Positions 1,847 to 60,182 of a stretch of DNA of 64,000 bases are shown piece after piece (the first letter of the stretch is position 1; the number at the start of each line of letters is the position of its first letter). The notes beneath the pieces were generated by a model. It did no database searches, was not told the origin of the DNA, and saw only the letters and a list, made by a program, of their open reading frames with translations. The stretch lies in assembly GCA_964017185.1 (NCBI GenBank), contig OZ024875.1, forward strand, positions 50,361,986 through 50,425,985, written 5' to 3'. The translations under genes and the position numbers were made by a program. This DNA is from Rugalucina vietnamica (taxonomy: Eukaryota; Mollusca; Bivalvia; Lucinida; Lucinidae).

Positions 1847-2931
1847 TATGGGGTGCCGTTTTACTATTTATTCCCTATTTATGGATATCCATAATTCATT
1901 TTTGGATATCCAAAATTCATTTTTGGATATCCAAAACTCATTTTTGGATATCCATAATTCATTTTTGGATATCCATAATTCATTTTTGGATATCCTAAAA
2001 TTGATTTATGGATATCCTTAATTCGGCTGAATACTGGATATCCATAAATTTATTTTAGGATATCCTAAAATCGAATTATGGATATCCTAAAATACAATCC
2101 TATTTTTGATATACATAATTCGATTTAAGGATATCCTAAAATTGGGCTAATATTGGATATCCATAATTCGATTTATGGATATCCATAAATGAATTATGGA
2201 TATCCTAAAATAGGACTGTATTTTAGGATATCCATAATTCATTAAAGGATATCCTTAAATCACAAAAATGATGTACGTGCCTAAGGGATACAATGATTTC
2301 TCCCTAGTCAGAGAATGGCGGCATCGGTGTGGTTGAATAAATAACTTTTTTTTTTCGTTCAGTTTTCGTTAGGAACCTTAGCGCATGCATATTACACGGG
2401 AGAAATCATTATAGAGAAGAAATATTTTTAAAAATGAATCATGGATATCCTAAAATCGATTTATGGATATCCTTAAATCAGATCATTTAAGGATATCCTA
2501 AGATATAATTATGGATATCCAAAAATCGAATTATGGATATCCTAAATTCAAGATTATTTTGGATATCCTAAAATACATTTAAGGATATCCTTAAATAAGC
2601 TGATTAAAGGATATCCATAATTCGATTTTTGGATATCCATAATTCATCGTGACTTTTGGATATCCAAAAATGTATTTCAGGATATCCATAATTCAATTAA
2701 GGATATCCATAATTCATTTAAGGATATCCATCATTCATTTATGGATATCCATAATTCATTTATAGATATTCATAATTCATTTTAGGATATCCAAAAATAT
2801 TAATGGATATCCTTAATTATTTTAGGATATCCATAAATGAATTAAGGGTATCCATAAATGAATTATAGATATCCTTAAATAAATTATGGATATCCAAAAA
2901 TAGGGAATAAATAGTAAAACGGCACCCCATA
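1847..2931. mobile_element. GGATATCC-palindrome element, inner nested copy
   Basis: It has the same termini as the outer copy: 'tatggggtgccg' at 1847 and 'cggcaccccata' ending at 2931. It is flanked by a direct 'cataat' on each side (about 1841-1846 and 2932-2937), which looks like a 6-bp target-site duplication. Removing the insert and one repeat restores the order seen inside the inner copy itself ('ggactgtattttaggat' followed by 'ccataattcatt'). This shows that one family member transposed into another. The inner copy carries an extra ~125-bp MITE-like insert at 2289-2413 that the outer copy lacks. Confidence 0.8.
2289..2413. mobile_element. Small MITE within the inner palindrome element
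   Basis: The ends are inverted: 'aatgatttctccc' at about 2292 and 'gggagaaatcatt' at about 2398-2410. The corresponding empty site is visible in the outer element near 2990 ('gcctaagggaatattttt'). The interior holds a T-run and no coding. The target duplication could not be fixed because of small differences at the edges. Confidence 0.65.
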
Positions 2932-3594
2932 CATAATTCATTTAAGGATATCCTTAAATCACAAAAAAATGATCTATGTGCCTAAGGGAATATTTTTAAA
3001 AATGAATTATGGATATCCAAAAATCGATTTATGGATATCCTTAAATCAGATCATTTAAGGATATCCTAAAATAGAATTATGGATATCCAAAAATCGAATT
3101 ATGGATATCCTAAAATCAGATCATTTAAGGATATCCTAAAATAGAATTATGGATATCCAAAAATCGAATTATGGATATCCTAAATTCAAGATTATTCTTA
3201 GATATCCTAAAGTACATTTAAGGATATCCTTAAATAAACTGATTTAAGGATATCCATAATTCGATTTTTGGATATCCAAAAATCGAATTATGGATATCCA
3301 TAATGCATCGGAATGTTTGGATATACAAAATGTGTTTTAAGATATCCATAATTCAATTATGGATATCCATAATTCATTTAAGGATATCCATATTTCATTT
3401 ATGGATATCCATTATTCATTTATGGATATCCATAATTCATTTCAGGATATCCAAAATATTAATGGATATCTTTAATTTGTTTAGGATATCCATAAATGAA
3501 TTAAGGATATCCATAAATGAATTATGGATAGATCTATCCTTAAATAAATTATGGATATCCAAAAATAGGAATAAATGGTAAAACGGCGCCCAAT

Positions 3595-13746: not shown

Positions 13747-13768
13747 ATTTGATTCTTTTGATTACAGA

Positions 13769-16700
13769 ATGGCGTCAGAACCAGACTTGGAACAACCTAC
13801 AGTTGAACATCATAAAACACAAGACAAAGATAGCATAATGGAAAATGGAGGAAATAATGGAGTTGAAGTAACTAAGAGCAAAACAATCAAAATATGTCAA
13901 AATTTAGAACAAAATAGTGAAGAAAATATATTAACAAATGGAGAAAATGATACTACGGATGAAAACTTGATAGAGCTTGACTCCCCTGGTTCGGATACTT
14001 TCAATGCATTCCTGAGTTGTAGGCTTATAGAAAGGGCTACAGCACTAAGGAATGCTGCAGATGAAGCCTCGTGTAGTGCCAATGTCCAAAATTATGGTGA
14101 TAATAGACTCAGTGACCAAAGTATGCATAGTTCTCATGCAGAGAGCGGGTATCTGACCGAGTCAGTGGCTTCTACCTCGACTCTGGGATGTGATAGACTG
14201 GAATCGGTGAGTTCTGAAGGAGATAGAACACCGTGTGATAATAGAACTGTACAAAATGACTTATTCAGCTCAAGAGATGGTGTTGCCGGGTGCGGTAGCT
14301 GTGGAGCGGAAGGATTTTCGGGAAGCTGTGATAAACCAAGGACAGATTCAACAAGTTCAGCCAAAGCTTTTGACCTCATCAATGCTTTGGATAATTTAAA
14401 GGACCTTGATCTTGGTACAGATGTTCGGTTCAAATCGAATGCTACTCCTGTAAAACTGATAGATTTAGATGAAATTTTTGTCAAATGTGATTCAAGTAGT
14501 GGTCAGTCTAGGCCTGAAAGCCTATCTCTTCCCAAACCGCCCAGATCAACTGAGAGACCTCATAGTAAAAGTGACGCTAGCTCCGCCATTCCAGAGCAAG
14601 TGGAAGAGACAAGGGAAAGAAAGAGAAGTAAAAGTTCTGGGTTTCCCATTCCGAGGGTGAAGGAGGGGGTTGATATTACAGACGATGGACTGTCCAAGAG
14701 TTTACCACATGGTATAGTCACTAGAAAGGGTGATATGATAGAATTTGTAGCTGACGATTTACAAGAGATGATTAAAAGGAGTAGTCCTATGTCCAAAACA
14801 GGTATGCCTAAACCAAAATTGTTACATTGTACCATTACCTATTCATTTGTGATATGTATCTGTTTTCATATTTGATTCTGTGTACACTTACATGAATTTA
14901 CAATTCAGTAAATAAATTGCAATGTTTTATCGGTATATTTGAAAATATTCAGCTGCCTGTGAGAAGCTCAGTGATGTTCACTAAATTAAGCTGTTAAGAC
15001 TATAAACTGTTTATTCTGTTAAGGAAATGTTTGTGGGAACTTAATTTTGGCTAATATAAAGTCCGTGCTAATAAAGTGTTACTATAAGCTTTAAAGACTG
15101 CAAGAATACTCATAAGCAAATTAAAGAAATCGCTAATGATTTGGAAAGAGAAAAATTGTGAAATAGAAGTCATGCTAAAATGTACAATGTTATAGTACAT
15201 AATGCAAAGTGATCTATAATTTGAGCCGCCTCATGGGAAAACCAACAATCTGCATATGCAAAAACAAAGACGCAGATCAGCTTCGCGGTAACCGCGAAGC
15301 TGATCAGCGCCTTTGTTTTCGCTACTGGGATAGTACATTTCCTCCTCTACCTAAATCCAAAATTTCAAGCATCTAGCCTGCTTCTATGACTGTACAGCCT
15401 GGTTTGTGTCAGACCTGGTCGGAAACCACATTGTTGGTTTTCCCACGAGGCGGCTCATGTGATTGCAGCATCCAGTGTGAGCAGTAGGAGGTCCAGTCTG
15501 ATCAGTATCTCCAGCAATGGTTCCTCTGCCATGGCAACATCCATGACCTCCGGCAGTGCGTACCCCCAGAGTCCAGATCTGATCCCGCCCATAGACCCCA
15601 TCGCTATAGTGGAGATAGAGAACCAGGCTAGACTGGTCGCTGATAGTCTTGACTTGATGATGGGAAATCTGAGGAGTAACCTACACAATGTAAGTTGATT
15701 GGTTGATTTTATATAGATCATGACCCTGAGATGACCTTGACCTATTTTATAGCAATACAAAGTCAACCGAGGTAGCCAATGTGTTTGAATTGGGAAAATC
15801 CGTAGAATGTCATTTTATTGGGAAAAAACATAAGGTAATAATAAGTCATAGGCTAGTTAAATCATTATGGATATGCAGAGACAACCAACACAACTAAGAA
15901 CAACCAATATAGATGAATTCAAAATGAGGCTGTATGATGCGAAAAACTTATGACAGATTAGAGTGTAAGTTGTTCCCAATCAGGTATTTACTCTGTTGTT
16001 GCTTATTATTATTATAGCCCCGCTTTGGAAAAGCGGGGCTATACTGGATTCACCCTGTCCTTCCGTGATTCTGTCTTTCCGTCATTCCATCATTCTGTCT
16101 TTCCGTGAACAATTTGTTTCCGTTCAATATCTTGAGAATGGCTTGACAGAATCTGACCAAATTTTGTATGCACGTCAACATCGACATGACCTAGCTTGGG
16201 ATTGTTGCCCGTCATTTTTCACAAAATTTTGACAGAGTTACAGCCCTTGATTGACGTCAGAATTTTGTTTCTGCTCAATATCTTGAAAACGAATCGACAG
16301 AATCTGACCAAATTTTGTATGCACATCATCATTGACAAGATCTAGCTTGGGATTTTTCGCAAAATTTTGACGGAGTATCGGCCCTTGATTGACGTCAGAA
16401 TTTCGTTTCCCCTCAATATCTTGAGAACGAATTGACAGAATCCGACCAAATTTTGCATGCACATCATCATAGACAAGATCTAGCTTGGGATTGTTACCCG
16501 TCATTTTTCCCAAAATTTTGACAGAGTTACGGCCCTTGATTGACGTCAGAATTTTGTTTCCGCTCAATATCTTTAGAACGAATTGACAGAATCCGACCAA
16601 ATTTTGTATGCACATCAACATTGACAAGATCTACCTTGGGATTGTTACCCGTCATTTTCCGCAAAATTTTGACGGAGTTACGGCCCTTGATTGACGTCAG

Positions 16701-19700
16701 AATTTCGTTTCCGCCCAATATCTTGAGAACGAATTGACATAATCCGACCAAATTTTGTATGCACATCATCATTGACAAGATCTAGCTTGGTATTAATACC
16801 CGTCATTTTTCGCAAAATTTTGATGGAGTTACGGCCCTTGATTGATGTCAGAATTTCGTTTCCGCTCAATATCTTGAGAACGAATTGACAGAATCCGACC
16901 GAATTTTGTATGCACATCATCATTGACAAGATCTAGCTTGGTATCGTTACCCATCATTTTTCGCAAAATTTTGACCGAGTTACGGCCCTTGATTGACTTC
17001 AGAATTTCGTTTCCACTCAATATCTTGAGAACAAATTGACAGAATCCGTCCAAATTTTGTATGCACATCATCATTGACAAGATCTAGCTTTGGATTGTTA
17101 CCTGTCATTTTTCGCAAAATTTTGACGGAGTTGTGGCCCTTTATTGAGGTCAGAATTTCGTTTCCGCTCAATATCTTGAGAACGAATTGACATAATCAGA
17201 CCAAATTTTGTATGCGCATCAATATTGACGAGATCTAGCTTGTGATAGTTACCTGTCATTGTTTTTTTTCACCCTGCAAAAAAGCTGAGAAGCGGGGCTA
17301 TAGTCAGATTCTCTGACAATTCTAGTTGATATTATCTTTGTTGATGGGTCTCAGTTGTGTTGGTTGTCTCTGAATATAGGGTTTGTATTTTTAGGATTTA
17401 AGATTGACTTTGTCTTTCCAACCATTCTTACTTTATATTAATTGGAGAGGACTGGTACAATGATGAAACCTAGGACTTAGGGCCATGGGGTCCATGGTTC
17501 GAGCATAAGGCCCTCAACCTGAGCATCATTTATTCTGACCTTAAGAATTTAGCTCCCCAATTCACCCCGCTTTGATAAACCATGATAAACCGTGGTAGAA
17601 GAACTGGGGAGCCTTCCCGATTGTATTAAAATGTTTAATACAACTTGGTCGAACAGGGAGAGATGTAAAAAACTGGGTAAAACAGGGCCGACACCAGGAC
17701 AAACCATCATACCAGTGGGGCTCGACTTAGATAAACTGGGATGATCCGGCATAAATGGTGGGTAACCAGGAAGAAACCGGGCTATTCCAGCATAAACTGG
17801 GGCTTCACCAGTGTCAACCGGGACCTCAACGGGACAACCGTCTTTGAAAGTTTGGCCATGGTGAATCCCGGTTTGCTTCGTTTGCTATCTTTTTCAATAC
17901 CGACGGTATGACGTTGACATCGCAAAATGTGAATTAGAAATTGACGTCACGAAATTGCATGCAACTAATTGGATTTTAGTGTATTTAGGCACTAGTTTCA
18001 AAACGCTGTCTCATAAGGAAGGTTTGAAATTTCAAGCAAGAGCTTTGAAATTTCTGATTCTATAATATTTAGCCATCACATACTTATAAAGACAGCAGAA
18101 AATGTCACTTTAAATCAGTTAAAAAACGTTTTTCCAGGGCCAATTAATTTCTTAATCAATAAAATAAGATACGAATTGAGGATGGTGTGTGTTTTTTCTA
18201 TGTTTCTCATTTATCATGATGATGAGTTGAGTTTATGAAAAAGTACAAGTAGGCAAAGATCAGGAAAAGGCGCAATCAGAAAAAGACTCCCACTCCAAAA
18301 ACCAAGGTGGGAAAAAACCAAACTAACAATCAGGCACTTATACCATGAAAACACTTATATGAAAGCTTTTGGAAATGTATTATAAAAATATTAAAGATAG
18401 CAAAACTGTTAAAAACTTCTGGCTTCGGCTCCACAAGACCCAAAATGCCTGATAACATCGCATATAGGCCATCTCCAGGTTTACAATTATATCCTAGTCC
18501 TACAATCTAAAATCTGGCTTTAGAAGCCAGGCCCCAAGGTTATACGACTTTTTTCACGCTAAAATTTTTCTAATACTGAGACTAAAACTTATCCTAGGCA
18601 GCCCCTGTGGCCAAATGGTTAAGGGTGCTGATATTTGATAATTTCATTATCACGCTTAACCATTTGATCATCTAACTGCTGTGTCTGGTGTGGGTTCGAT
18701 CCCCATGCGGGGCATATGTGAGCAAAGCCAAGTTCTGCTTATGAGTGTGCCAGTTTTTGCCCCACCTACTGATTGGCCCGTAAGCTGAATAAAAAAAAAG
18801 TAACAATAAAAAATATCCTGCTCATCAATGTTAAAGCATTTTAACATTTATAAGCAGGATAAAATTACACACACTAGTGATCTAAACCTGAAATTTCATT
18901 TCTTTTGGGATATTTCAATATTTATGAGCAGTTTAAATTTCATGCTCAGCTGAGTTGAGCATGGAAAAAGTTTTATAACCTTGGGCCAGATTCGGAATAA
19001 TGCTTTGGCAGATAGAATTTCTCCTTTGACCTTTCAGATTTGGCTGAATTATTATTGCAAGCTCAGAAACACTTACAAAAACTTTACTTTTGCTTATGTA
19101 GCAGATTTACTATGCTTCCAAAGTTGTCGCTATAAAGACTTACATGTGTAAGTTTTATCGACTGCGCAAATACTGGCTGCAATTCCATCATGATAATAGA
19201 AATTCATGGTAGAACACTAGATATCATGTGAATCTACAGTTTGTTTCGTAACTTTTGCATTGTCATTGTGATGTGATTAAAAAGAACACCTGTTTTATAC
19301 TGTTAATGCATGTCATTTTCTTATTGTTCACACTTTACTTAATTAATACATAATACATGTAAAGTGCTCATGATGTAGCATTAACTGATCTGCGCCTTTA
19401 TTTTTTTTCCATATACATGTATAGTACAATGTCTCTTCTTTCTAAATCTAAAATTTCTATCTTGTTGCTATTTTCTGTCGCTGTATGGCCTGGTTTGCGC
19501 CGACCTGGTCTTAAACACAGATTGTTTGTTTTCTCATAAGAAGGCTCAAACCTTTAAGATGAGGTATTCTAATGGCTACTGATCTTCTCCAAGGCTTCTG
19601 GTTCATTTATAAATATTGACAACTGGTAGCTTTCATTTATTCAGGGTGGTCGTATAATATTATGTCTGTTTAATAAACAAAATCTAACAAACCATTTGTT

Positions 19701-32992: not shown

Positions 32993-33227
32993 GACCAGCG
33001 TCATGAGAAAACCGGATTTTTGCCTATGTGAAAACAAAGGCGCAGATCAGCTTCGCAGTAACTGCGAAGCTGATCAGCGCCTTTGTTTTCGCAACACGGA
33101 TGGTACAATTCCTCCTCTACCTATTCCCAATATTTTAAGATTCAAGCTCTTTTCTGTGACTGTACAGGCCGGTTTGTGTCAGTCTTGGTCGGAAACCCAG
33201 AAGACCGGTTTTCTCGCGTCGCGGCTC
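32993..33227 (+). mobile_element. Palindrome MITE PM, copy 13 (CCGG-type ends)
   Basis: Perfect ATAT flanks (32989-32992, 33228-33231). The second base group of the left end is changed (GACCA). Confidence 0.92.
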
Positions 33228-33455: not shown

Positions 33456-35387
33456 CTATCCACATTTTATCATCATAGTCGTTGCCTCTAGGAAGTATTT
33501 CCAACCATGCCAATGATGCCAATATATACCAGTCCTATCCGGAGCACTGACAGACTGGTGATACACTCCGTTGAGATTGGAGTAGCTGCACCGCCAGTAC
33601 CTCCAGGCTCCTCTTTGCTTCACAGCACAGTTGCCATGTGACCAGCTGTCATTGTCAATGTTTTTTTTCCAATCATGCCAATATATACCAGTCCTATCTG
33701 GAGCACTGGCGGACAGGTGATACACTCCGTTGAGATTGGAGTAGCTGCACCACCAGTACCACCAGGCTCCTCTTTGCTTCACAGCACAGTTTCCATGTGA
33801 CCAGCTGTCATTGTCAATGTTGTTTTTCCAATCATGCCAATATATCCCAGTCCTATCCGGAGCACTTGCAGACTGGTGATACACTCGGTTGAGATTGGAG
33901 TAGCTGTACCGCCAGTACCACCAGGCTCCTCTTTGTTTTACAGCACAGTTGCCACGTGACCAGCCATTATTGTCCACATTGTTTTTCCAACCATGCCAAT
34001 GATGCCAATATATACCAGTCCTATCCGGAGCACTGGCGGACAGGTGATACACTCCGTTGAGATTGGAGTAGCTGCACCGCCAGTACCTCCAGGCTCCTCT
34101 TTGCTTCACAGCACAGTTGCCATGTGACCAGCCATTATTGTCCACATTGTTTTTCCAACCATGCCAATCATGCCAATATATACCAGTCCTATCCGGAGCA
34201 CTGGCAGACTGGTGGTACACTCCGTTGAGATTGGAGTAGCTGCACCGCCAGTACCACCAGGCTCCTCTTTGTTTTACAGCACAGTTGCCACGTGACCAGC
34301 CATTATTGTCCACATTGTTTTTCCAACCATGCCAATCATGCCAATATATACCAGTCTTATCCGGAGCACTGGCAGACTGGTGATACACTTCGTTGAGATT
34401 GGAGTAGCTGCACCGCCAGTACCACCAGGCTCCTCTTTGCTTCACAGCACAGTTGCCACGTGACCAGCTGTCATTGTCAATGTTGTTTTTCCAACCGTGC
34501 CAATCATGCCAATATATCCCAGTTCTATCCGGAACACTGGCGGACAGGTGATACACTCCGTTGAGATTGGAGTAGCTGCACCGCCAGTACCACCAGGCTC
34601 CTCTTTGTTTCACAGCACAGTTGCCACGTGACCAGCCATTATTGTCCACATTGTTTTTCCAACCATGCCAATCATGCCAATATATACCAGTCCTATCCGG
34701 AGCACTGGCAGACTGGTGATACACTTCGTTGAGATTGGAGTAGCTGCACCGCCAGTACCACCAGGCTCCTCTTTGCTTCACAGCACAGTTGCCACGTGAC
34801 CAGCTGTCATTGTCAATGTTGTTTTTCCAACCATGCCAATCATGCCAATATATCCCAGTTCTATCCGGAACACTGGCGGACAGGTGATACACTCCGTTGA
34901 GATTGGAGTAGCTGCACCGCCAGTACCACCAGGCTCCTCTTTGTTTCACAGCACAGTTGCCACGTGACCAGCCATTATTGTCAACATTGTTTTTCCAACC
35001 ATGCCAATCATGCCAATATATACCAGTCCTATCTGGAGCACTGGCGGACAGGTGATACACTCCGTTGAGATTGGAGTAGCTGTACCACCAGTACCACCAG
35101 GCTCCTCTTTGCTTCACAGCACAGTTGCCACCTGACCAGCCATTATTGTCCACATTGTTTTTCCAATCATGCCAATATATCCCAGTTCTATCCGGAGCAC
35201 TGGCGCACAGGTGATACACTCCGTTGAGATTGGAGTAGCTGCACCGCCAGTACCACCAGGCTCCTCTTTGTTTCACAGCACAGTTGCCACATGACCAGCC
35301 ATTATTGTCAACATTGTTTTTCCAACCATGCCAATCATGCCAATATATACCAGTCCTATCTGGAGCACTGGCGGACAGGTGATACAC
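33456..35387 (-). CDS. Tandem array of fibrinogen C-terminal subdomain units, with terminal end
   Basis: A 643-codon open frame of 11 near-identical units of 53 or 56 residues. Each unit reads like the C-terminal third of a fibrinogen-related domain: 'GNCAVKQRGAWWYWRCSYSN', then 'LNGVYH', a short linker, and 'GIYWHDWHGW'. The last unit ends 'WKYFLEATTMMIKCG' and stop, the usual fibrinogen-domain terminus, so this is a real last exon. Known domains have this part once, after an N-terminal portion not found in the window. The two cysteines of the usual disulfide are kept in most units, but the second is Tyr in a few. The calcium-site 'DVDNEG' of the first unit is 'NVDNNG' or 'NIDNDS' later. The call start is only where the frame reopens after a stop. 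Function is unknown; relatives are lectin-like. Confidence 0.8.
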   Translation of the reverse strand: MYHLSASAPDRTGIYWHDWHGWKNNVDNNGWSCGNCAVKQRGAWWYWRCSYSNLNGVYHLCASAPDRTGIYWHDWKNNVDNNGWSGGNCAVKQRGAWWYWWYSYSNLNGVYHLSASAPDRTGIYWHDWHGWKNNVDNNGWSRGNCAVKQRGAWWYWRCSYSNLNGVYHLSASVPDRTGIYWHDWHGWKNNIDNDSWSRGNCAVKQRGAWWYWRCSYSNLNEVYHQSASAPDRTGIYWHDWHGWKNNVDNNGWSRGNCAVKQRGAWWYWRCSYSNLNGVYHLSASVPDRTGIYWHDWHGWKNNIDNDSWSRGNCAVKQRGAWWYWRCSYSNLNEVYHQSASAPDKTGIYWHDWHGWKNNVDNNGWSRGNCAVKQRGAWWYWRCSYSNLNGVYHQSASAPDRTGIYWHDWHGWKNNVDNNGWSHGNCAVKQRGAWRYWRCSYSNLNGVYHLSASAPDRTGIYWHHWHGWKNNVDNNGWSRGNCAVKQRGAWWYWRYSYSNLNRVYHQSASAPDRTGIYWHDWKNNIDNDSWSHGNCAVKQRGAWWYWWCSYSNLNGVYHLSASAPDRTGIYWHDWKKNIDNDSWSHGNCAVKQRGAWRYWRCSYSNLNGVYHQSVSAPDRTGIYWHHWHGWKYFLEATTMMIKCG

Positions 35388-35998
35388 TTCGTTGAGATTG
35401 GAGTAGCTGTACCACCAGTACCACTAGGCTCCTCTTTGCTTCACAGCACAGTTGCCATGTGACCAGCCATTATTGTCCACATTGTTTTTCCAACCATGCC
35501 GATCATGCCAATATATACCAGTCCTATCCAGAGCACTGGCGGACAGGTGATACACTACGTTGAGATTGGAGTAGCTTTACCACCAGTACCACCAGGCTCC
35601 TCTTTGCTTCACAGCACAGTTGCCATGTGACCAGCCATTATTGTCCACATTGTTTTTCCATCCATGCCAATCATGCCAATATATACCAGTCCTATCTGGA
35701 GCACTGGCGGACAGGTGATACACTCCGTTGAGATTGGAGTAGCTGTACCACCAGTACCACCAGGCTCCTCTTTGCTTCACAGCACAGTTGCCTCCTGACC
35801 AGCCATTATTGTCCACATTGTTTTTCCAATCATGCCAATATATCCCAGTTCTATCCGGAGCACTGGCGGACAGGTGATACACTCCGTTGAGATTGGAGTA
35901 GCTGCACCGCCAGTACCACCAGGCTCCTCTTCGCTTCACAGCACAGTTGCCAAGAGACCAGCCCTCGTTGTCCACATCAAAAGTTGTGAACTTTTCAC
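33464..35998 (-). repeat. 15-unit coding minisatellite, 159- and 168-bp units
   Basis: The units differ by presence or absence of 9 bp coding His-Gly-Trp. Some units form a two-unit higher-order repeat: the pair with 'SASVPDRTG' followed by 'NNIDNDSW' occurs twice in succession, indicating block duplication of ~336 bp. Confidence 0.88.
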
Positions 35999-36014
35999 CA
36001 TTGTTGTTGTCCAC
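35388..36014 (-). pseudogene. First four fibrinogen-type units, interrupted by two in-frame stops
   Basis: Same frame as the 643-codon frame. It starts with 'VDNNNGEKFTTFDVDNEGW', which resembles the stretch preceding the calcium site in fibrinogen domains, and continues with four units. A TAA at 35577-35579 (minus) and a TAG at 35424-35426 each replace a codon of the conserved Trp/Tyr cluster by one base. Apart from these the whole 36014-33456 frame is open for 853 codons. No splice acceptor was evident just upstream: the flank is a TTA/ATT-rich stretch. Confidence 0.7.
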
Positions 36015-36097
36015 AGTGATGTTGTAATAATAATAATAAAAAAAATAATAAGAATCCTTTAAAAGCCTGATATGCTTTCCTTCTTGGGTAGACTCTT

Positions 36098-43183: not shown

Positions 43184-43476
43184 CAATTATGCAATACAAA
43201 TATAATGAGTGATCATTCTAGATTATTTTACAAATAAACAGAACCAGGAAGAGGCTATTCAGACAGTTATGAGTGACTTTAATCACATATACTCCTATAT
43301 TCAGACCCCGTCTAAAACAAAATGCTTTATTTAACAAATTTAAGTAGTTAAGAGAAAAATCTATATTACTAATAAAGTAGCCATGCATCAAGCAAGCAAT
43401 ATGCATAATATTATAAAAAATCAGTGCATCGGCAAAACCCTATGTAAATATCTTATAACATGAGGCCACCCCTTCC

Positions 43477-44113
43477 CCGCAATTTCTGTTTATCAGCATT
43501 GTCTCCAATCGCCACAGTACAGATCACAATGTACTTTGTCTTACAGAGTTCCCAGAAATTTCCCACAATTTCTGTTTATCAGCATTGTTTCCAATAGCCA
43601 CAGTACAGATCACAAAGCTGTAGTTTGGCCTACAGCATTCCCAGAAATTTCCCACAATTTCTGTTTATCAGCATTGTCTCCAATCACCGCGGTGCAGATC
43701 ACAACGCTGTATTTCGGCCTACAGCATTCCCAGAAATTTCCCACAATTTCTGTTTATCAGCATTGTCTCCAATCCCCGCCGTACAGATCATAACGCTGTA
43801 TTTCGGCCTACAGCATTCCCAGAAATTTCCCACAATTTCTGTTTATCAGCATTGTCTCCAATCCCCGCCGTACAGATCATAACGCTGTAGTTTGGCCTAC
43901 AGCATTCCCAGAAATTTCCTGCAATTTCTGTTTAACAGCATTGTTTCCAATCCCCGCCGTACAGATCATAACGCTGTATTTCGGTCTACAGCATTCCCAG
44001 AAATTTCCCGCAATTTCTGTTTATCAGCATTGTCACCAATCCCCGCCGTACAGATCATAACGCTGTATTTCGGCCTACAGCATTCCCAGAAATTTCCCAC
44101 AATTTCTGTTTAT
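43477..44113 (+). repeat. 89-bp minisatellite, seven units
   Basis: 'cagaaatttcc' recurs at 43553, 43642, 43731, 43820, 43909, 43998 and 44087, exactly 89 bp apart. The units are ~90% alike by eye. The overlapping ~85-codon plus-strand frames are by-products. Confidence 0.93.
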
Positions 44114-47111: not shown

Positions 47112-47752
47112 TAACTTGATCATCTGCTTGTGTCTCGAACAGCTTCCAGTTTCCAACTTGTGTCTTGAACAGCTTCCAGTTTCCAAATGATATCATCTGC
47201 TTGTGTCTCGAACAGCTTCCAGTTTCCAAATGATATCATCTGCTTGTATCTCGAACAGCTTCCAGTTTCCAAATGATATCATCTGCTTGTGTCTCGAACA
47301 GTTTCCAGTTTCCAAATGATATCATCTGCTTGTGTCTCGAACAGCTTCCAGTTTCCAAATGATATCATCTGCTTGTGTCTCGAACAGCTTCCAGTTTCCA
47401 AATGATATCATCTGCTTGTGTCTCAAACAGCTTCCAGTTTTCAAATGATATCATCTGCTTGTGTCTCGAACAGCTTCCAGTTTCCAAATGATATCATCTG
47501 CTTGTGTCTCGAACAGCTTCCAGTTTCCAAATGATATCATCTGCTTGTGTCTCGAACAGCTTCCAGTTTCCAAATGATATCATCTGCTTGTGTCTCGAAC
47601 AGCTTCCAGTTTCCAAATGATATCATCTGCTTGTGTCTCGAACAGCTTCCAGTTTCCAAATGATATCATCTGCTTGTGTCTCGAACAGCTTCCAGTTTCC
47701 AAATGATATCATCTGCTTGTGTCTCGAACAGCTTCCAGTTTCCAAATGATAC
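47112..47752 (+). repeat. 43-bp minisatellite, about 14-15 units
   Basis: The unit contains 'cttccagtttccaaatgata' and 'tcatctgcttgtgtctcgaa'. It is very homogeneous (single-base differences), with a shorter variant unit at the start. There are no unique spacers. Confidence 0.93.
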
Positions 47753-49913: not shown

Positions 49914-50290
49914 TGTAACCCCATTGTCCAAGGAACTCAATAAAGACAATTTAAATTTTCTACATGTTTATTTTCAACCCAGGTTCTTCTTTTATTTCCA
50001 TACGAGATCTTTCCACTTTCACACCAGACCACAAACTGCTCTTTCTGCCTTCTCTCTCCGATATATGTCTTCTTGCACACGTCATCCTTTCTTCTACCAC
50101 GCATGCTCACCCATCCAACATCTAGCACATACCCATATATGTTCACCACCTCATAACCTATACTCATTCATTATCATAACATAGTATACACTCGATCTAG
50201 TACACTCGTACTCAACACTCGACCTAGTACTCTCGTACTCACCCAGTACTTAAACAACTGAAAAACTACTATTTTATCAATACTGTTACA
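49914..50290 (-). repeat. 3' LTR
   Basis: 377 bp with TG...CA ends (TGTAAC / GTTACA inverted tips). It looks identical to 59806-60182. On the minus strand U3 carries a ~27-bp direct duplication (50187-50241, 'gagtacgag...ctag...tcgagtg'), a TATA-like 'acatatatggg', and AATAAA at 49967-49972. Confidence 0.95.
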
Positions 50291-50310
50291 AATGCCTCCC
50301 CCCAATAAGT
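50291..50310 (-). promoter_or_regulatory. Polypurine tract
   Basis: On the minus strand 'ggggggaggcatt' lies immediately before the 3' LTR start TGTAAC, the expected place for the plus-strand primer. Confidence 0.75.
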
Positions 50311-50703
50311 TTTTATGTTGTTTAATATGTCCTTGATATGTCTTTGATAACTGCTTTCCAGCTTATTTTGTATTGTGAATTTATAATGAAACACTAACTG
50401 AGTCATCTACACATTTGAAAGACATATACATGCTCTAAATAAGTTCACTACACTTTTTATTAATATTCATCCAGAGTAAGAATGTATTTTAAATCCAAAT
50501 GAGAATAGATACGTCCAACAGTTGAAATAGTTAGAAACACAGTTACTCGATACAGTTACTCCACACCATTCCGTCAATCGTTGCTCTCCATGTAAACGTC
50601 GCTTTAGTCATAGTCCATGCACGTTTTTTTCATAGGTAATGTAGTATATGTAGGTCCTGTCACATCGCTGTCTCGCTGTCTACACAATTAAACCCTACTG
50701 CAA

Positions 50704-51018
50704 TTATTCGTCATCATCCGAAACGTATATGGCCATTTCCGCATTTTCCCCGCTCCTCATTTGCGTGCCCCGATCTATTTTAGTTTTCTCTTGCTCCATA
50801 GCGTCCGTTTGACAACCTTTGGTGTTATTTTGCACTTTCATTTTCTTGTATGTATCCATTTGCCGCATTGTAGCGAGCAGTATGTCCATACTAGCTGACA
50901 CACAAGCTTGTTCCCTATTGCCATTAGTCACACCATGCCTATCTAACTGATGAAGTATATTCCGATATGCTGTGTCAAATAGTTTCGACATGTCTAGTGT
51001 TGTTTTGTTTCTACTCAT
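50704..51018 (-). CDS. Small accessory ORF of the retrotransposon
   Basis: 104 codons between env and the 3' LTR, with an acidic C-terminus ending 'AIYVSDDDE' and many charged residues. No signal peptide or membrane segment and no family recognised. It is intact although the neighbouring TIR insertion is only ~170 bp upstream. It could be an extra element-encoded protein or a chance frame. Confidence 0.5.
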   Translation of the reverse strand: MSRNKTTLDMSKLFDTAYRNILHQLDRHGVTNGNREQACVSASMDILLATMRQMDTYKKMKVQNNTKGCQTDAMEQEKTKIDRGTQMRSGENAEMAIYVSDDDE

Positions 51019-51188
51019 GTTTGATTTGATTTTTGGAAGTTAATGTAAGGTTCTATAAGTTTATAAACTAATATCCGAGGAAATCTAGCTATGGTAGAAT
51101 GTGCAGCTAAGTTGCAAAACGTTGTCATCAAGATTATTAATTAAAGTTATTGTCTACTCTTTATTTCTGCCTATCTTGTATTCTTATG

Positions 51189-52161
51189 CTGCTCTCACAT
51201 ATACCGAATATCCCTTGCGAATCCTAAAATTTGAAATTCGCGCTGAAATTACGGAATATGATGCGAATGGACGGGGCGGGGCTTGTAAAAAACGATGTCT
51301 TTGCGAAAGCGGTAAGAATGCTTGCGGCTCCTTACAAATGTCTGAAGAATGTTGCGATTGATTGCCTTCCTCATTACCGAATTCTTGAAAATGCCTTACG
51401 AATGTTCCGAACGCTTACAAATGCCGTTACAAATAATACGAACGTCTTGCAAACACCTTACAAATGAAGCGAATGTGTAGCGAATGCTTGCCGAATTGTT
51501 TCACTTTTTACTCATTCGCAAACATTGTAGCCAATAATATCAATGTAAAATGAAATCACCAACAATGCCATGGGGCATGAAAAAATATGTCATTATTGGT
51601 CCAAGTCTTCTCTTGAAACACACACCTCTTTGTTGTTTCTCTCAAATTGCGATTTACACAATAAAAAGATCATTTTACTGGGCAAACGAAAATTTCACGG
51701 GACTTTAATTTGTCTGTCATACATTGATGGATAGCTTAAAGTCAAACGCCATAAATAATGGCCTTTACTTGAAGGATAGAGAGAGAATAAATAAACTATG
51801 CTAAAAACTGAGTCTTGAATGTGAAAATGTTGCGATTCACTAGCGATTCTTTACGGACATCAAAACTCAATAGAATTTAATGCCACAGAATCCTTGCAAA
51901 TGGCTTGCGTGTGTTACAAATGTCTTGCAATCAATCCGAATTGTTTACGAATTTTTTACGAATATGTTAAGAATATGATTTCCTTGCGAATTTTAGGAGC
52001 ATGTTCCTAATTATCGCAGCTACTCGAAATTTTCACCGAATGCTTCCGAATGCTTACAAATGCTACCGAATGCTTCCGAATTTCTAGCGATTAATGCGAA
52101 TTTGATCAAAATTGCATTCGGAAGGGCATTCGCAAGGGAAATTCGGTATATGTGAGAGCAG
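51189..52161. mobile_element. 973-bp TIR element with 'gcgaatg/ttacgaatg' repeats, inside the retrotransposon
   Basis: The ends 'ctgctctcacatataccgaa' and its inverse are exact at the tips and diverge inward. The flanking third on each side is crowded with variants of 'cttgcgaatg', 'cttacaaatg' and 'cttccgaatg', resembling the subterminal transposase-binding repeats of some DNA transposons. It is non-coding. The target duplication is uncertain ('tat' on both sides). Confidence 0.8.
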
Positions 52162-52581
52162 TATTAGCGATTATATTTCCAGGTAAGTTGAAATTCAGGG
52201 AAAATGTTTGGCAATCATTCAACTCGTAGGTAAGTCTAGGTAGATATGGTTGGATCACAGAAAAGTTTCACTTATGTTTCTGAGTGACTGTTCTGACTAG
52301 TCTGTGTTGACTTGGCAACATGCCAACTACTGTCCCATTGGTCTGGTAGATCCATAAAGTTTTTAATAGAACATATACATGACAAATGTCCTTGTCGCAC
52401 ATTTGAACCTGGGTTTTTATTACATGTCTTCAATAAACAGTTTCACTATATACATGTAACTAGTCACACATAATCCTTATTGTCTTTATGTCATTATGAT
52501 CTTTATAATTTTTATGATCCCGGGATTTACTGCAACACTATATACAAGCATATTTATACTGGTACCATACAGTTTCATAGT

Positions 52582-54369
52582 TTATAACCCCGTAACTTCG
52601 GCGCCATCCATTTTAAACAACGATGGATATAGTTTCTGGGTGACATCCTCGTGGGCTGCTACGGGCGCTGATGGAGTGGGACCACCACAATCCGAAGCTT
52701 GATTGTCGATCGTTGTCGAAACGCCCGGTTTAGGCTTCATGTTTACCGTCTCATGTGCTCGGCAACATTCTCGCAAGGAAGAACAGGTCTGACTTAAATT
52801 AGCATGGTACTTGCAACATAAGTACATGCACCCTATGGCTATACTCATTATTATAGAGCCAATAATGAAATAAACCCATTTTGGCCAAGCATCGTTTTTA
52901 ACCTTTATTTCTGCGGTGGTGTCTAATTCAGCCAATAATCCGTCAAGGGATATTTGTTGTATTGGTTTCAGTGATTTTGGCAAGGGTATCTTAGTGAAAT
53001 TAGGATACCGTTCTTGCAATGGTCTTATAGCATTTAGCTGGGAGATATTTATAGATCTCAACAGTGCAAGATCTTGATCTCTTATGTCATAATCATTTTC
53101 CTTTTGATAAGAGGCTGTTAATGTGAAATAGTCACTAGATGCCACACATGTAGTTGGTACTTCCAAAATATCAATGGGTGGTTTTAAGGTAATAGTTTTG
53201 CTTTGATCATTATTGCAAACGATTGAAAATCGTAGACTTTCTTGTGAAACAACTCCCCACAAGAACCCCATTAATTTAGTAGCAGAAGGAAGTTTCGTAT
53301 TCAGAGTGATGACACTTTTACAATTTTCCTCAATTTCATTCTGTTTCCTTAAGAACAGGTTGATCACACACAACCGTGCCAAATTGACTGGATAGATTGG
53401 ACTTTCTACCTTGCAGTATGTTGTAGTAGCTTTACTGCAAATATTTGTCTCAGAAGCAGTCAAGATAGCATATTTAGTGTGAGCCTTGTTAATCATGAAC
53501 CCCTCACTCTCAAGCTGGTATGTAGCAATCATACTTTGTGCATTTCCTAGATTTGGAACTGCTAAAGGAAGATTAAACACCTGATAGATATCAAACTGAT
53601 GATTTATTTCAAGCAAGGGAATTTGTATGATAACAACTATTTTATTCTCATACAACATAGCACTTATCTGTAAACGCTGATAAAACAGCCATAAGTCTGA
53701 TTTTGGATCTCCAATTAATGCCAAAGAAGCTGGAAGATGGCTTTTTATTTCTAACATTAAACTACGCAAATTGGTTGGAGATAAGGTACTCGGGATTAAT
53801 CTTCCTAATGAGAGGAAATTCAGTTGTGTTTTGAGGTGTTCGAGATAAAGCATGGCATTTTGAATCATATCTTTTATTTCCATGGTGATGAGACTCAATT
53901 TCATGTACATAGCCATAAAGTTCTTAGTTTCATATATTTGCTTTCTGACGTCATCGACTAGATTTTCTAGCTTTTTATCTAAAGCTGTTACACTTATGAG
54001 TAGATCTGCTACTGCCTGTCTATTTTCTGCAATTTCAGTTCGTGACACATTCAGAATAGAAATGCTTTCATGCACCACATGCATTATGTCACGCTGATTT
54101 GCAGCAAGATTTTTAATGTTTTTGCGGATGTTGTCTAAATCGGAATCGGTAACAAGACCAAATGCCCAGCCTACTGCTTCACCTACTATTGGGATAAGGG
54201 ACCTTTTCTCGCGATGCGGCAGCAATCTATATTCCCTTAAACCGTTTACTATGTAGTTGCATGTTTCGTTTAAATATGCCACTTCCTTTTGGAGTGCATA
54301 AATTGTAGTCCAATACTCGCGCTTATCTTTCCCGCGAAACTTTGATAAAATGATATTTCCAGTAAGCAA
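52582..54369 (-). CDS. env: Env fusion glycoprotein (errantivirus/baculovirus-F-like)
   Basis: About 595 codons. The furin-type site 'HREKR' is near residue 55, followed by a hydrophobic fusion-peptide-like 'SLIPIVGEAVGWAFGLV'. Heptad-like helices come next, and a membrane anchor near residue 520 ('WVYFIIGSIIMSIAIGCMY') with a Cys-rich start of the ~50-residue tail. This plan is that of insect errantivirus Env and baculovirus F. The first codon used here (54369) is a TTG inside a longer open frame that starts after a stop near 54463. A signal-peptide-like start lies upstream in another frame (54463-54558). Expression would need splicing or a frame change. Confidence 0.82.
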   Translation of the reverse strand: MLTGNIILSKFRGKDKREYWTTIYALQKEVAYLNETCNYIVNGLREYRLLPHREKRSLIPIVGEAVGWAFGLVTDSDLDNIRKNIKNLAANQRDIMHVVHESISILNVSRTEIAENRQAVADLLISVTALDKKLENLVDDVRKQIYETKNFMAMYMKLSLITMEIKDMIQNAMLYLEHLKTQLNFLSLGRLIPSTLSPTNLRSLMLEIKSHLPASLALIGDPKSDLWLFYQRLQISAMLYENKIVVIIQIPLLEINHQFDIYQVFNLPLAVPNLGNAQSMIATYQLESEGFMINKAHTKYAILTASETNICSKATTTYCKVESPIYPVNLARLCVINLFLRKQNEIEENCKSVITLNTKLPSATKLMGFLWGVVSQESLRFSIVCNNDQSKTITLKPPIDILEVPTTCVASSDYFTLTASYQKENDYDIRDQDLALLRSINISQLNAIRPLQERYPNFTKIPLPKSLKPIQQISLDGLLAELDTTAEIKVKNDAWPKWVYFIIGSIIMSIAIGCMYLCCKYHANLSQTCSSLRECCRAHETVNMKPKPGVSTTIDNQASDCGGPTPSAPVAAHEDVTQKLYPSLFKMDGAEVTGL

Positions 54370-54462
54370 AGCATCATGAATATCTTTATCAAGCTTATCT
54401 AAAAATCCACTGAAAGGCTGAAGATCAATTAAAAATGATGCGAGCCATTTGGCATGGGTTAT

Positions 54463-54558
54463 GTGACCTCATTTGTCTTTTGAAAAATAACATTTTCATT
54501 TATAATAACAGACCCTGTTAATCCCATAAAAACTGCCACTAAGCCTAAAATTCTCATT
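54463..54558 (-). pseudogene. Signal-peptide-like start of env, out of frame with the rest
   Basis: ATG at 54558 followed by a hydrophobic stretch ('MRILGLVAVFMGLTGSVII'), ending in a stop at about 54463. The env frame continues in the -1 frame from this point. Either a one-base change broke env, or a splice joins the parts. Confidence 0.6.
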
Positions 54559-54653
54559 TTCTGAAAGAAAAATCAGAAAATAGATAAATATATTTCATAT
54601 GTCTGCCCACACTTATCTTTTTATGTTATTTCAGACAACCATTATCTTAAAGC

Positions 54654-57600
54654 TTAGATAACACCTGTCTGGGAAGCCTTGAGTAAACCAACTATGCCTG
54701 TAAGCAATTCACATGTTGCTTCTAATGGCTTCTTAGTTCTGTTGAACTTGTTTTCTTGATAAGGCACAACACATGCCTCATTAACCGATTTTACAGATAA
54801 TGTATCACACTCCATAGACTCAGATGCGTCAGCTGTATTCTGCTGTTCAGATAACTGTGTATTTGAGGATGAATCAGAGGATGAGTCTGAATCATCTTCA
54901 TACCATTTTTTCTTGCGACGGCCATGTTTTGCCAATTCCATTTTTGGGATAGGACCTTCACTTTCAGAGTCCTCCCGCTCATGTCGATAGCGTCGCGCTA
55001 GACGAGCTAATGGTACATTGTCTTCACTGCTATCCTCACTACTACTGGAGGTATCAGTTTCAGGTGGTACAACATACGCTGTTTTGCGCAACGACCGACT
55101 TGGCTCTGGTATTTCCCAGGTGTCTACCTTTGCTTTGCGAATGTTATCAGCATGGCAAGGAATAACAGAACCATCTAATTGGTGTTTTATCTTGAAATTC
55201 ACAGGTGATGATTTCTCAATGATACGATAATAAGGTTTCCAGCCAAGACTGAGCTTGTTTGGCTTAGGTATGCTGTAATAAACTGGGTCACCTACTTCAA
55301 AGTGATCATCTTTTGCCTTCCTGTCAGCATATTTCTTCTGACCTTTCTGCGCACGTTTAAGGTGCTTGTGCACTTGTACAAAAGATTTGTGTTGCTGTTC
55401 TAAAGCAATCTGATGAGCATTTTCTCCCATGTACTTCCGTCTAGGTTTTAAAATGTTGTCTAGTGGAAGAACCACATCACGGTTATACAAGAGGAAGAAT
55501 GGTGAAAACTTAGAAGATTCACTGACATTGAAACGAATAGCAGCCAGGGCTTGATTAAGATGTAAATCCCATGTGGTTACATCATTTTTCAACTTTTTAG
55601 AAAGCACGTCATGTAAAACTCTATCAAAACGCTCTACCTTGCTATTGCTAGCTGGGTGGTAAAAGCTGGTTTTCACATGATGTATATTGAGTGCTTCTAA
55701 AGTCTCCTTGACCTTTCTATTTACGTTCTCACTTCCGTTATCAGTTACAATCTCTAATGGTGTGCCATATCTTGGAAATATTTCCTCTATGATAAGGTGA
55801 GCTATGGTATCAGCGCTCTTATCAGGAACAGCAAATGCTTCTGGGTAACCACTATACCAGTCAACAAACCCTACGATGTACTTGTTTCCGGACAAGGAAG
55901 TTGGATATGGGCCAGAGACATCGAGGCCAATCTTAGCAAAAGCATATGGTGGTATGTCGGTCTCCTGTAAAGGTGCCTTATGTTTCTGTAGGCTCCTAGC
56001 TTGACAAGTAACACAACAACCAACATAGTCATATACTTCTTTGTACATGTTTGGCCAATAATACTTAGACTTCATGGAATCATAAGTCTTATCTGTACCC
56101 ATGTGCCCATTCAAATCATGATATTGTTTGATAACAAAATCTCGTAAATGTTCCGGAATGTACAGTCTCAAAACTGGATCAGAATCAGCATTTGAGATAA
56201 AGTAGAGGATGTTGTCCATCACAATATGTCTTTTTTGTATAGACTTTGGGAGCTTATCATTCTGTAACCCTATCTTCAGCTCCATGATAACAGCATCCTT
56301 TGATTGCTCAGTTGCCATATCAACATCATCACCTAAGTTGGGTTTTATCACTGTCTCTGAAGGTGGTAATTTACAGCTGGCAAACTCTTTAGGATCAAAC
56401 CTATTAGAGTTTAGTGCATTTATCTGATAAGCCTTATCGCTTATGTCTGGTTCATAGGTATCATTTTCCTGCGTTAAACCAGCACTTTGTGGTATACGTG
56501 ATAACAAATCAGCACAGGAATTATCAGTACCTTTGATGTATTCTATCCGGCAATTATAACCAGATATGCCTAGCGCCCAAAGCTGGATTTTCTTGTTTTG
56601 CATGGGCGAATCGAGAAGGTATTTCAGAGGCTTGTGGTCTGTTTTAATGACAAATTCTGCATTATGTAAATAATGATCTAATTTCTGCAACGAAAAATGA
56701 ATAGCAAAAGCCTCCTTCTCAATTGTAGACCACCTAGTCTGTGTATCTGACAACTTATGGGAAAGATAATATATAGGTTTTTCATTTTTCTCACATTCAT
56801 TTTTCCCACGATTGTCAGTGTCAGACAAGTCATCACAAGTCTGAGTCAGACAAGCACCTATACAATCATGACTTGCATCTGTATAAAGGATGTATGGTTT
56901 ATTTGGGTCAGGGTAACCTAAAACAGGATAGGCTGCCAAATGTGTCTTCAAGGTTTCAAAGGAAGACTGACATTTCACATCCCACTTGAATTTCGCGTAC
57001 TTGCGTGTCAAAGCTATAATTGGCTCAGCTATCTCAGAGAATCGAGGAATAAATCTTCGATAATATGAGCACATGGCAACTAGACTTCTTACTTCTCTTA
57101 CAGTTGTTGGAGGAGCCAAGGACATGATAACATTCACTTTTCTTGCTTCTGGCTTTATTCCATTTTCATTGATAACAAATCCAAGATAATTTGTCTCAGA
57201 TTTCAAGAAACTACACTTTTTCAGCTTCAGTCGTAGACTATGTTCTCTCAGCCTATTAAAAACGTTTTGAATATGAGCCAAATGCTCGTCCAGTGTATTG
57301 GAATATATCAAAATATCATCCAAATATGCGACAGTGAACTTATCAAGTCCTTCAAGCACCCTTGACATTAATTCCTGGAAAACAGCTGGGGCAGTGGTCA
57401 GTCCAAAAGGCATTACATTAAATTCAAACAGTCCTCGGTGGCATGCAAAAGCTGTCTTTTCCTTATCTGTTTCATTCATCAACACTTGCCAGTAGCCGCT
57501 TTTTAAGTCTAAGGATGTGAAGAATTTGGCTTGACCTAAGAGTGCTAATATGTCATCTATTACAGGTAGGGGATATGAATTTGACTTGGTTATCTTATTT

Positions 57601-58726
57601 AATGCCCTGAAGTCTACACAGAATCTTTTTGTGCCATCTTTCTTATCAACTATGACAACCGGAAAGCTCCATGGTGACTTTGATCTTTGAATGATCTTTG
57701 CATCTAACATTTCATCAATTGCATTGTCAATTACCTTTCTGTTATTTAAGGGAGTGCGATATGGCCTTAACTTAATCGGTGGGTGTTCACCAGTATCAAG
57801 TTTCATTTTTACCGTATCGGTATGACTAAGGTCTGAATCTTTCTCTGCAAACAAGTCAGCATTGACCTTGAGAAGATTAATCACGTCTGACCGATATTTT
57901 TCTGGCACCTCAACATCCTCACATGTTTCATGAGTCTGGTGCGTGTTAGCCTTATTTGTACATTGGCTGACTTCCATTATTGTTTGACCTTGAACTTGTT
58001 CGACTTTTGCAATAGGACAACCTTTCTTTATTGTATATGTCTTATTTGTACTATTGACTACCAAAACTGGAATGAACCGGTTTCCAGACATCTTTGCAAC
58101 CGAGTTTGTAACCATTAAGCCTGGCTCATGCCCAAGAAAACCGACATTTGTTGGTGTGATTTGATAGGTTTCTGACGTAGGTAAATCAGGACTATTTCTA
58201 ACCTTACATTTACAGATAACAGCTGTTTGTGCCTTAACTTTTGTTTTTGTATGAGCCCGCACAATGGAAGATATATGAATATCCTCCTGTAGTGGTACAT
58301 AAGTTTGATGCACTCTGATACACCCTAGATCAAAGTATAATCGGACACCATTGTTTTGTAACCAGTCACGGCCTAAGATAAGTTTTCTATTCATATTTGG
58401 CACAACAAAAAATGTTTGTTTCATTTTTATACCACTTATTTCCATGGGAATTTCAATGCAGCCATCAAGTTTCAAGGGTTCTCCATTGACAGTCTGCAAA
58501 GCAGCATTTCTGTGATTCAGTTTTGGCTTGCATTTCAGACTATCATAAACCCGCCTATGCATGAGAGAACATTCAGCACCTGTGTCTATGAGAGCTCGGA
58601 TTTTATGTTTATCTACAGTAATTAAACATGAATTTTGATTTCCTGAAAATGCTACAGTATAAGTTGGTTTACTTTTTGATCTACCCTTTCCACTGGCTTC
58701 CTTGTGGAAGGGTGGCTTTAGTTTCC
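54654..58726 (-). CDS. pol: Pro-Pol polyprotein (protease, RT, RNase H, integrase)
   Basis: The open frame reaches back to the gag stop, although the first ATG is at 58562. Protease 'LIDTGAE' lies just upstream of that ATG, with a 'LILGRDWL' flap-side motif ~60 residues into it. RT runs from ~residue 240 ('FCVDFRALNK', catalytic 'YLDD' at ~410). RNase H has 'YTDAS' near 555. Integrase has an HHCC zinc region (~820-850), then catalytic D in 'GLDVSG' (~877), D in 'VTDNGS' (~939) and E in 'KVERF' 35 residues on. A GPY/F-like stretch near 1140 and a Ser-rich acidic tail follow. All key residues are present, so the enzymes look functional. It is made by -1 frameshifting from gag, as inferred from the slippery site. 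Confidence 0.93.
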
Positions 58727-58727
58727 C
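58718..58727 (-). promoter_or_regulatory. -1 ribosomal frameshift site at gag-pol junction
   Basis: The minus strand reads G GGA AAC TAA in gag phase: the classic X XXY YYZ heptamer GGGAAAC (58721-58727) directly followed by the gag stop (58718-58720). The pol frame is -1 relative to gag and is open across this point. Confidence 0.85.
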
Positions 58728-59626
58728 TGATTATGAGCAGTAGTTGTCTGACCTGGCCGACCGCCAGCTTGTATTGGATTTTTATTATGCCAACATTCAT
58801 TTGCAAAATGCCCTTTTTTCGAGCAGTGCCAGCAGACAATTTCAGAACGTGGCCTTGGCCTGCCCGAATTTCTTGTTTGATTCACCGAGTTTACACTAGC
58901 CTTGCGTAACCGACAATCTTTTGCTTTGTGGCCATGTTTTTTGCAATTATAGCACTGAAAGGAAGGTCGTGCATGACCAACTTCCATGGGCTCAGGGCCT
59001 GTACCTTGAAAAGACTGTGTGTGATTCCCTGATCTTAAATTAAACCGTCTGCGCAGATTTTGTTCAGCGTTTGCAACTTCAATGGCCTTTGCCAAAGTAT
59101 CTGGATTATCGCGCATGATCTTTATTTTCATAAAATCATTCATCAGCCCATCTATGAAGAACCCAATCAATTGTTCATTTGCAGCTGTTACATCATCAAA
59201 GGCATCTTCTGCCAATGCCATGATGCGCTCTGCATACACCTGAATACTTTCGCCTTCCTTTTGCCTTACTTTCCTTAAAAGAGAGAGTGCATATTGATGA
59301 TCCGTGACCTCTGCAAATCTGGAGGTCAACTCTTTCTTTATGTCCTTCCATACTTGTGTGGGATTTGCACCTAAGTGTCGTTTTAGAAAATCACTGACAG
59401 GGCCCTTGCTTGCCTGGTAGGCCACTAATTTGTATTGTGCTACATCAAGATTTGTCAAGATACCATATTTTTCGATTCCTTTTATCCAGTCCTTAAATTC
59501 TTTTGGATTACCCTCGAATGGTTTAATGATTTTGGCTACACTTTGTGCCCCAATTGTTGTGGTCAGTCCGGTCATTTGGTCACCCACATTTTTGAGGGCA
59601 GCAACAAATTGAGCCTGTTCTCCCAT
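58718..59626 (-). CDS. gag: Gag capsid-nucleocapsid protein
   Basis: 302 codons. A capsid-type helical part (residues ~30-200, 'KIIKPFEGNPKEFKDWIKGI', 'YALSLLRKVRQKEGES') is followed by two CCHC zinc knuckles, 'CYNCKKHGHKAKDC' and 'CWHCSKKGHFANEC'. The ATG at 59626 is ~180 bp into the element after the 5' LTR. A dead relative is at 31440-32368. It packages element RNA and forms particles in related Ty3/gypsy elements. Confidence 0.92.
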   Translation of the reverse strand: MGEQAQFVAALKNVGDQMTGLTTTIGAQSVAKIIKPFEGNPKEFKDWIKGIEKYGILTNLDVAQYKLVAYQASKGPVSDFLKRHLGANPTQVWKDIKKELTSRFAEVTDHQYALSLLRKVRQKEGESIQVYAERIMALAEDAFDDVTAANEQLIGFFIDGLMNDFMKIKIMRDNPDTLAKAIEVANAEQNLRRRFNLRSGNHTQSFQGTGPEPMEVGHARPSFQCYNCKKHGHKAKDCRLRKASVNSVNQTRNSGRPRPRSEIVCWHCSKKGHFANECWHNKNPIQAGGRPGQTTTAHNQGN

Positions 59627-59773
59627 GTTTAAAAATTGTCGAAAATGAAACTAATAAACACTTACCATATTTTTCCAGGACTTGTCCGACTTGATCTTAA
59701 CACAAGCGTCCCACGGTGGAATTTACAAAGTCTTGTAATATTGTCACATGTCTCTTATCACTGGAAATAAATA

Positions 59774-59791
59774 TCCTGTCGTACGGCACCA
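59774..59791 (-). promoter_or_regulatory. Possible primer-binding site
   Basis: The minus strand reads 'tggtgccgtacgacagga', starting with the TGG expected opposite tRNA CCA. It lies 14 nt inside the 5' LTR edge, farther than usual. The tRNA was not assigned. Confidence 0.35.
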
Positions 59792-59805
59792 AAAACACAT
59801 GTCCT

Positions 59806-60182
59806 TGTAACCCCATTGTCCAAGGAACTCAATAAAGACAATTTAAATTTTCTACATGTTTATTTTCAACCCAGGTTCTTCTTTTATTTCCATACGAGAT
59901 CTTTCCACTTTCACACCAGACCACAAACTGCTCTTTCTGCCTTCTCTCTCCGATATATGTCTTCTTGCACACGTCATCCTTTCTTCTACCACGCATGCTC
60001 ACCCATCCAACATCTAGCACATACCCATATATGTTCACCACCTCATAACCTATACTCATTCATTATCATAACATAGTATACACTCGATCTAGTACACTCG
60101 TACTCAACACTCGACCTAGTACTCTCGTACTCACCCAGTACTTAAACAACTGAAAAACTACTATTTTATCAATACTGTTACA
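59806..60182 (-). repeat. 5' LTR
   Basis: 377 bp, apparently identical to the 3' LTR base for base on reading. It contains the promoter and polyadenylation region of the element (AATAAA at 59859-59864, minus). The ~76- and ~86-codon frames inside both LTRs are not genes. Confidence 0.95.

Follow-up and report, generated by a model that had tools for sequence, protein, structure and literature searches.

The window, a stretch of 64,000 nucleotides of Rugalucina vietnamica DNA, harbors on its minus strand a tandem array whose constituent units match the C-terminal part of a fibrinogen-related domain (FReD). Tandem Repeats Finder places the array at 33498-35977 (period 168, 15.0 copies, 91% matches, score 3987). 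The locus consists of the following features, all on the minus strand:

33456..36014, minus strand: probable remnant of a FReD last exon, including the 15-unit array, read from 36014 to 33456
35982..36050, minus strand: 5' edge of the probable exon remnant, NITVDNNNGEKFTT, behind a TTA-rich tract; boundary AG absent
33498..35981, minus strand: tandem array of 15 units (eleven of 168 bp, four of 159 bp); unit 1 starts at 35981, unit 15 at 33665
35577..35579, minus strand: in-frame TAA in unit 3, where the second core Cys is expected; units 2, 4, 6 and 13 have Tyr here
35424..35426, minus strand: in-frame TAG in unit 4, at the site of a core Trp
33456..33497, minus strand: normal domain end, KYFLEATTMMIKCG, in single copy and with the stop codon TAG; its first codon is shared with the unit

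The repeated unit comprises about 56 codons, from the calcium-site region to the ...YWHDWHGW motif, and in the minus-strand frame the 15 head-to-tail units are spaced by 53 or 56 codons. The frame ends after unit 15 with ...YFLEATTMMIKCG, followed by TAG at 33456-33458, so the normal domain terminus described in the original prediction is present. The repeat length, said there to be always a multiple of three, is indeed so in 15 of 15 units (168 bp in 11, 159 bp in 4). Only one gap type occurs among the aligned units, a gap of 9 bp; in the four shorter units (159 bp), nine bases of an internal near-duplicate are missing. Three pairs of units (2 and 6, 7 and 9, 8 and 10) are nearly identical (99%); two-unit blocks were therefore probably copied, as is given by unequal exchange.

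The assignment to the C-terminal part of the fibrinogen-related domain, for which a profile search had been proposed as a check, is correct. With the Pfam profile Fibrinogen_C (PF00147) both open parts of the array frame exceed the curated cut-off of 22, namely a part of 655 amino acids (E = 4.1e-78, 262.6 bits, 11 separate stretches) and a part of 173 amino acids (E = 7.1e-19, 68.9 bits). The best stretches cover profile positions 142-206 and 157-219, or 143-219 when unit 1 and the end are joined. A complete domain (profile 1-221) is not found in the array, which holds C-terminal stretches only, and the rest was not found in the surrounding 184 kb. Among solved structures, those of angiopoietin-related proteins, ficolins and tachylectin-5A match the last two units plus the end, again with their C-terminal part. 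A single-sequence structure model of the last 224 residues (mean pLDDT 38.5) is uninformative for or against a living gene.

The genome (1.09 Gb in 47 contigs) contains at least 154 Fibrinogen_C matches (150 of 487 candidates scored, a list that does not include the window of the array). Two paralogous last exons serve here for comparison:

C17:34243588-34243833: L034, paralogous last exon in single copy, the nearest paralogue found
C3:77101228-77101473: L027, paralogous last exon in single copy

L034 has 78-79% DNA identity to the array units plus end (two best pieces), L034 and L027 have 54-59% protein identity to units plus end, and the domain end ATTMMI is common to all of them. Unlike the array, both exist as a single copy, their exon is open, and an acceptor AG is present; the single TAA reported for L034 overlaps the acceptor on the intron side. 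The protein alignment between a unit and L034 is without internal gap, and the blastn alignment has a few small gaps that cancel each other (its 185 columns hold 182 bases of either sequence). The open exon and the acceptor of L034 hint that the parent of the array may have been a still functioning, fast-evolving exon. The single-copy state of L034 and L027, together with the same domain end, indicates a local amplification, and the label 'coding minisatellite' in the original prediction is right in the sense of origin.

The array frame contains two stops in 852 codons, whereas each of the other five frames has 15 to 50. Because these stops fall into units 3 and 4, the complete units within the two long open parts are 1-2 and 5-15; of the fifteen in-frame units put forward originally, with no strand given, the number stands, a single open frame does not. 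The open frame expected of a functional FReD gene is interrupted (TAA in unit 3, TAG in unit 4). Thirteen of the 15 units are free of stops, despite about 34 to 41 changes each with respect to L034; in a simulation, 40 random changes leave zero stops in 0.1065 of runs. Both core cysteines are present in 10 of the 15 units only, the second being replaced by Tyr in four units and by a stop in one, which contradicts the view that the Cys core is kept in nearly all units. No in-frame ATG was found upstream of the array, and Met codons occur in frame only twice, both close to the very end.

A functional FReD gene is also expected to have either a splice acceptor or a read-through at the conserved exon boundary. 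We compared the starts of 20 paralogous last exons, drawn from the Fibrinogen_C matches in the genome; in most of them the match is restricted to the C-terminal part of the profile. According to the alignment, read by eye, an AG is found at the boundary in 16 of the 20 paralogues, preceding Gly-Asp-type codons (Asp-Asp in L034), and the other four (L031, L032, L038 and L040) have no boundary intron and read through as a longer exon. The array has neither: its place is occupied by TTACAACATC, behind the TTA-rich tract. Nine AGs were scanned between 36098 and about 35950, three of which would be in frame with the array after an upstream exon ending in phase 1. These three are preceded by 0 to 6 pyrimidines in up to 20 upstream bases, fewer bases being considered where the bound of the scan at 36098 intervenes. 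The AGs upstream of the array are weak cryptic candidates.

We searched for partner exons with phmmer in the window, extended by 80 kb on its upstream and 40 kb on its downstream side, using 34 FReD proteins and 8 translations from the same genome; the queries derived from L004, L006 and L008 are wrong-strand translations and useless, and no counted upstream-exon match rests on them. No other FReD exon was found in the 184 kb around the array, and the N-terminal half of the domain was not found within 80 kb upstream. A match to P0016 at 66639-67592 (with an overlapping frame at 66662-67303) was rejected as repetitive sequence, as judged from the sequences. Four weak plus-strand matches inside the array (E = 0.0042 to 0.072) were rejected because their queries are the wrong-strand translations from L004 and L008. 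As a control, the same queries were run on the 20 paralogue loci, each taken with flanks of about 2 kb: in 11 they recover an upstream FReD exon separate from the last one, and a twelfth locus, L032, has an extended last exon. No upstream FReD exon was found within about 2 kb in eight of the 20 loci (L022, L023, L027, L028, L033, L034, L035 and L039), and none for L034 and L027 even with a further 10 kb (about 12 kb in total; L041 and L042). Given these eight paralogues, orphan last exons may be common in this genome. The lack of an upstream domain half in the genome had been named as evidence that would speak against the original prediction; it applies locally, within the 184 kb, and not to the genome as a whole, where many complete domains are found elsewhere.

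To describe selection on the units, we consider pairwise comparisons as well as the distinct changes with respect to the consensus. The pairwise Nei-Gojobori dN/dS between units is 0.31. For the distinct changes, the null model keeps the base change and its CpG context, and the set of 41 changes corresponds to 47 types minus the changes found only in unit 1 within the first 21 positions. All 41 changes divide into 16 synonymous, 23 non-synonymous and 2 stops (null 9.7, 27.26 and 4.04), with 16 synonymous changes being reached in 0.0096 of simulations and two or fewer stops in 0.1736; changes in linked blocks are not independent, and hence these and the following selection figures are rough. 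The 20 private changes, each found in one unit, consist of 7 synonymous, 11 non-synonymous and 2 stops (null means 5.07, 13.21 and 1.72; 0.2004 of simulations reach 7), both array stops being private. The 21 shared changes consist of 9 synonymous, 12 non-synonymous and no stop (null 4.64, 14.0 and 2.35); 0.0168 of simulations reach 9 synonymous changes, and 0.0518 lack any stop. Restricted to sites beyond position 21 and with a null model without CpG context, 34 changes divide into 13, 19 and 2, respectively, and 0.035 of simulations reach 13.

These patterns suggest a weak coding constraint on the shared, presumably older, changes and near neutrality of the private ones. They also suggest a coding phase after the start of amplification. 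Relative to L034, dN/dS amounts to 0.69-1.32 over the 15 units, the plain reading of which would be that change has been near-neutral or diversifying since the units and L034 split. Relative to L027 the units give 0.22 to 0.39, and L034 versus L027 gives 0.31, with dS of at least 1.0 rendering these values unreliable. Relaxed change between units, likewise listed beforehand as evidence against a coding array, is therefore seen in part: the private changes look neutral, and the pairwise ratio between units is not that of fully relaxed sequence.

The window contains further tandem arrays against which the preservation of the frame can be compared:

16113-17260: control tandem array (151/453 bp)
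43476-44113: control tandem array (89 bp)
47157-47751: control tandem array (43 bp)

The 151-bp array (16352-17260) is non-coding, has a unit that is not a multiple of three, and shows 39 substitution types in 6 units with zero gaps. The 89-bp array (7 units) has 22 substitution types and two 3-column gap types, one of them at the edge, and the 43-bp array (13 units) has 5 substitution types and zero gaps. Since the 151-bp array is also gap-free, the missing frameshifts in the FReD array are weak evidence for coding, and we rejected the kept frame as proof of it.

The array shares the C-terminal part of the profile with the family PF00147 (ficolins, tachylectin-5A, angiopoietin-related proteins and other FReD proteins). 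Within the family this piece occurs once per domain, whereas the array has it 15 times and without the N-terminal half. Proteins with two FReDs (P0002, P0004 and P0024, as well as P0001, P0005 and P0006 by pattern only) have more than one FReD tail, as does the array, but in the five of them that show two pattern matches the tail motifs are separated by 217 to 364 residues, corresponding to whole-domain spacing. Tail motifs at unit spacing (53-56 residues) were found in none of the 34 protein matches, which were drawn from 7996 candidates scored at 0.55 to 1.75 times the query length, using two crude patterns: the first misses 3 of the 34 proteins entirely and detects a single one of the two tails in P0004, and the looser one gives other spacings, the closest being about 105. 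No description of an array of FReD tails was found in the titles and opening parts of abstracts among the papers listed. Minisatellites and exonic tandem repeats of coding origin are a known class. With these the array shares a unit that is a multiple of three, similar copies and block duplications; it differs from them in general in that its unit is cut from a globular lectin domain and its frame is now broken. The array is a new case in this class, a minisatellite born from coding sequence.

We consider the locus to be probably an orphan last exon of a FReD lectin gene that was amplified by unequal exchange and is now a pseudogene. The last exon would have been separated from the rest of the domain, and the stretch of about 56 codons would have been duplicated head to tail to reach 15 copies, presumably by unequal exchange, some steps of which probably duplicated a pair of units together. 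Evolution of the parent exon may have been fast while its frame was still open. Coding function would have been lost during or after amplification, when the stops in units 3 and 4 arose and the acceptor AG disappeared, such that the locus would now behave as a minisatellite of coding origin. Upstream exons beyond 80 kb, the use of a cryptic acceptor, or stops that are private to the haplotype or due to assembly errors could count against a pseudogene. The new repeat architecture for a lectin-like family, as offered in the original prediction, is not borne out by a locus with two stops, no acceptor AG, no in-frame start and no N-terminal half within 80 kb upstream.

An unlikely alternative is that a dead orphan exon was amplified as a non-coding minisatellite from the start, with no selection ever acting on the units. 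The 151-bp non-coding array without indels, the neutral appearance of the private changes, the dN/dS of 0.69-1.32 relative to L034 and the equally missing partner exons of L034 and L027 within about 12 kb upstream all agree with such an origin; the synonymous excess among shared changes and the pairwise dN/dS of 0.31 (modest statistics, from linked changes that are not independent) argue against it, as does the gap-free protein alignment to L034. The same synonymous excess, together with the absence of stops among shared changes, the single 9-bp gap type, the nearly open frame and the pairwise dN/dS, would also be expected of a living gene, i.e. a length-variable repeat lectin with a multiplied tail subdomain. 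Such a gene is rather improbable in view of the two stops, the lack of an acceptor AG and of partner exons in 184 kb, the loss of the second core Cys in five of the 15 units, and the absence of unit-spaced tail motifs from all 34 protein matches; it retains its small share since the haplotype in the assembly may be a null allele.

It is quite improbable that the locus represents a polymorphic immune lectin in which the part with the calcium and ligand sites was multiplied, selection kept the frame for part of its history, and the assembled haplotype is null; unit number and stops would then vary between individuals. An assembly artefact, with a wrong unit number or false stops, is highly improbable. 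Tandem arrays are prone to assembly error, but 41 distinct changes between units and a block structure are not expected from simple stutter.

Read as an amplified and decayed last exon, the locus would exemplify how an exon of a large lectin family can become a minisatellite that bears traces of a coding phase and was broken later. Were the array expressed, it would represent a new way of making a repeat lectin out of one portion of a globular domain. We note that nearly open arrays with strong domain matches require a check of stops and splice sites before they are labelled as a protein architecture.

Several other elements are found in the window. A very young LTR element of the Ty3/Gypsy type occupies 49914-60182, with its genes on the minus strand and direct repeats (49914-50290 and 59806-60182) that are 100% identical over 377 bp. 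It contains a gag-like ORF (58718-59650; zinc knuckle, Retrotrans_gag), a pol-like ORF (54654-58730, assigned by eye) and an ORF of 628 amino acids (52582-54468) that has no Pfam match, lies in the place of an envelope gene and has a putative envelope-like look. A palindromic MITE-like element with the core AAAACAAAGGCGCAGATCAGCTTCGC has 27 matches (up to 3 mismatches; 0.00 expected) scattered over 13172-62518, and one pair (33031-33089) lies near the FReD array, about 0.4 kb from its 3' end. A satellite-like stretch with the palindromic core GGATATCC covers 1521-3530, with periods of about 21, 48, 70 and 106-119. The neighbouring ORF at 13760-14875 has no Pfam match; its matches in named organisms are to molluscs, bivalves first, and the match in Mya arenaria is annotated as BLOC-1-related complex subunit 6-like.
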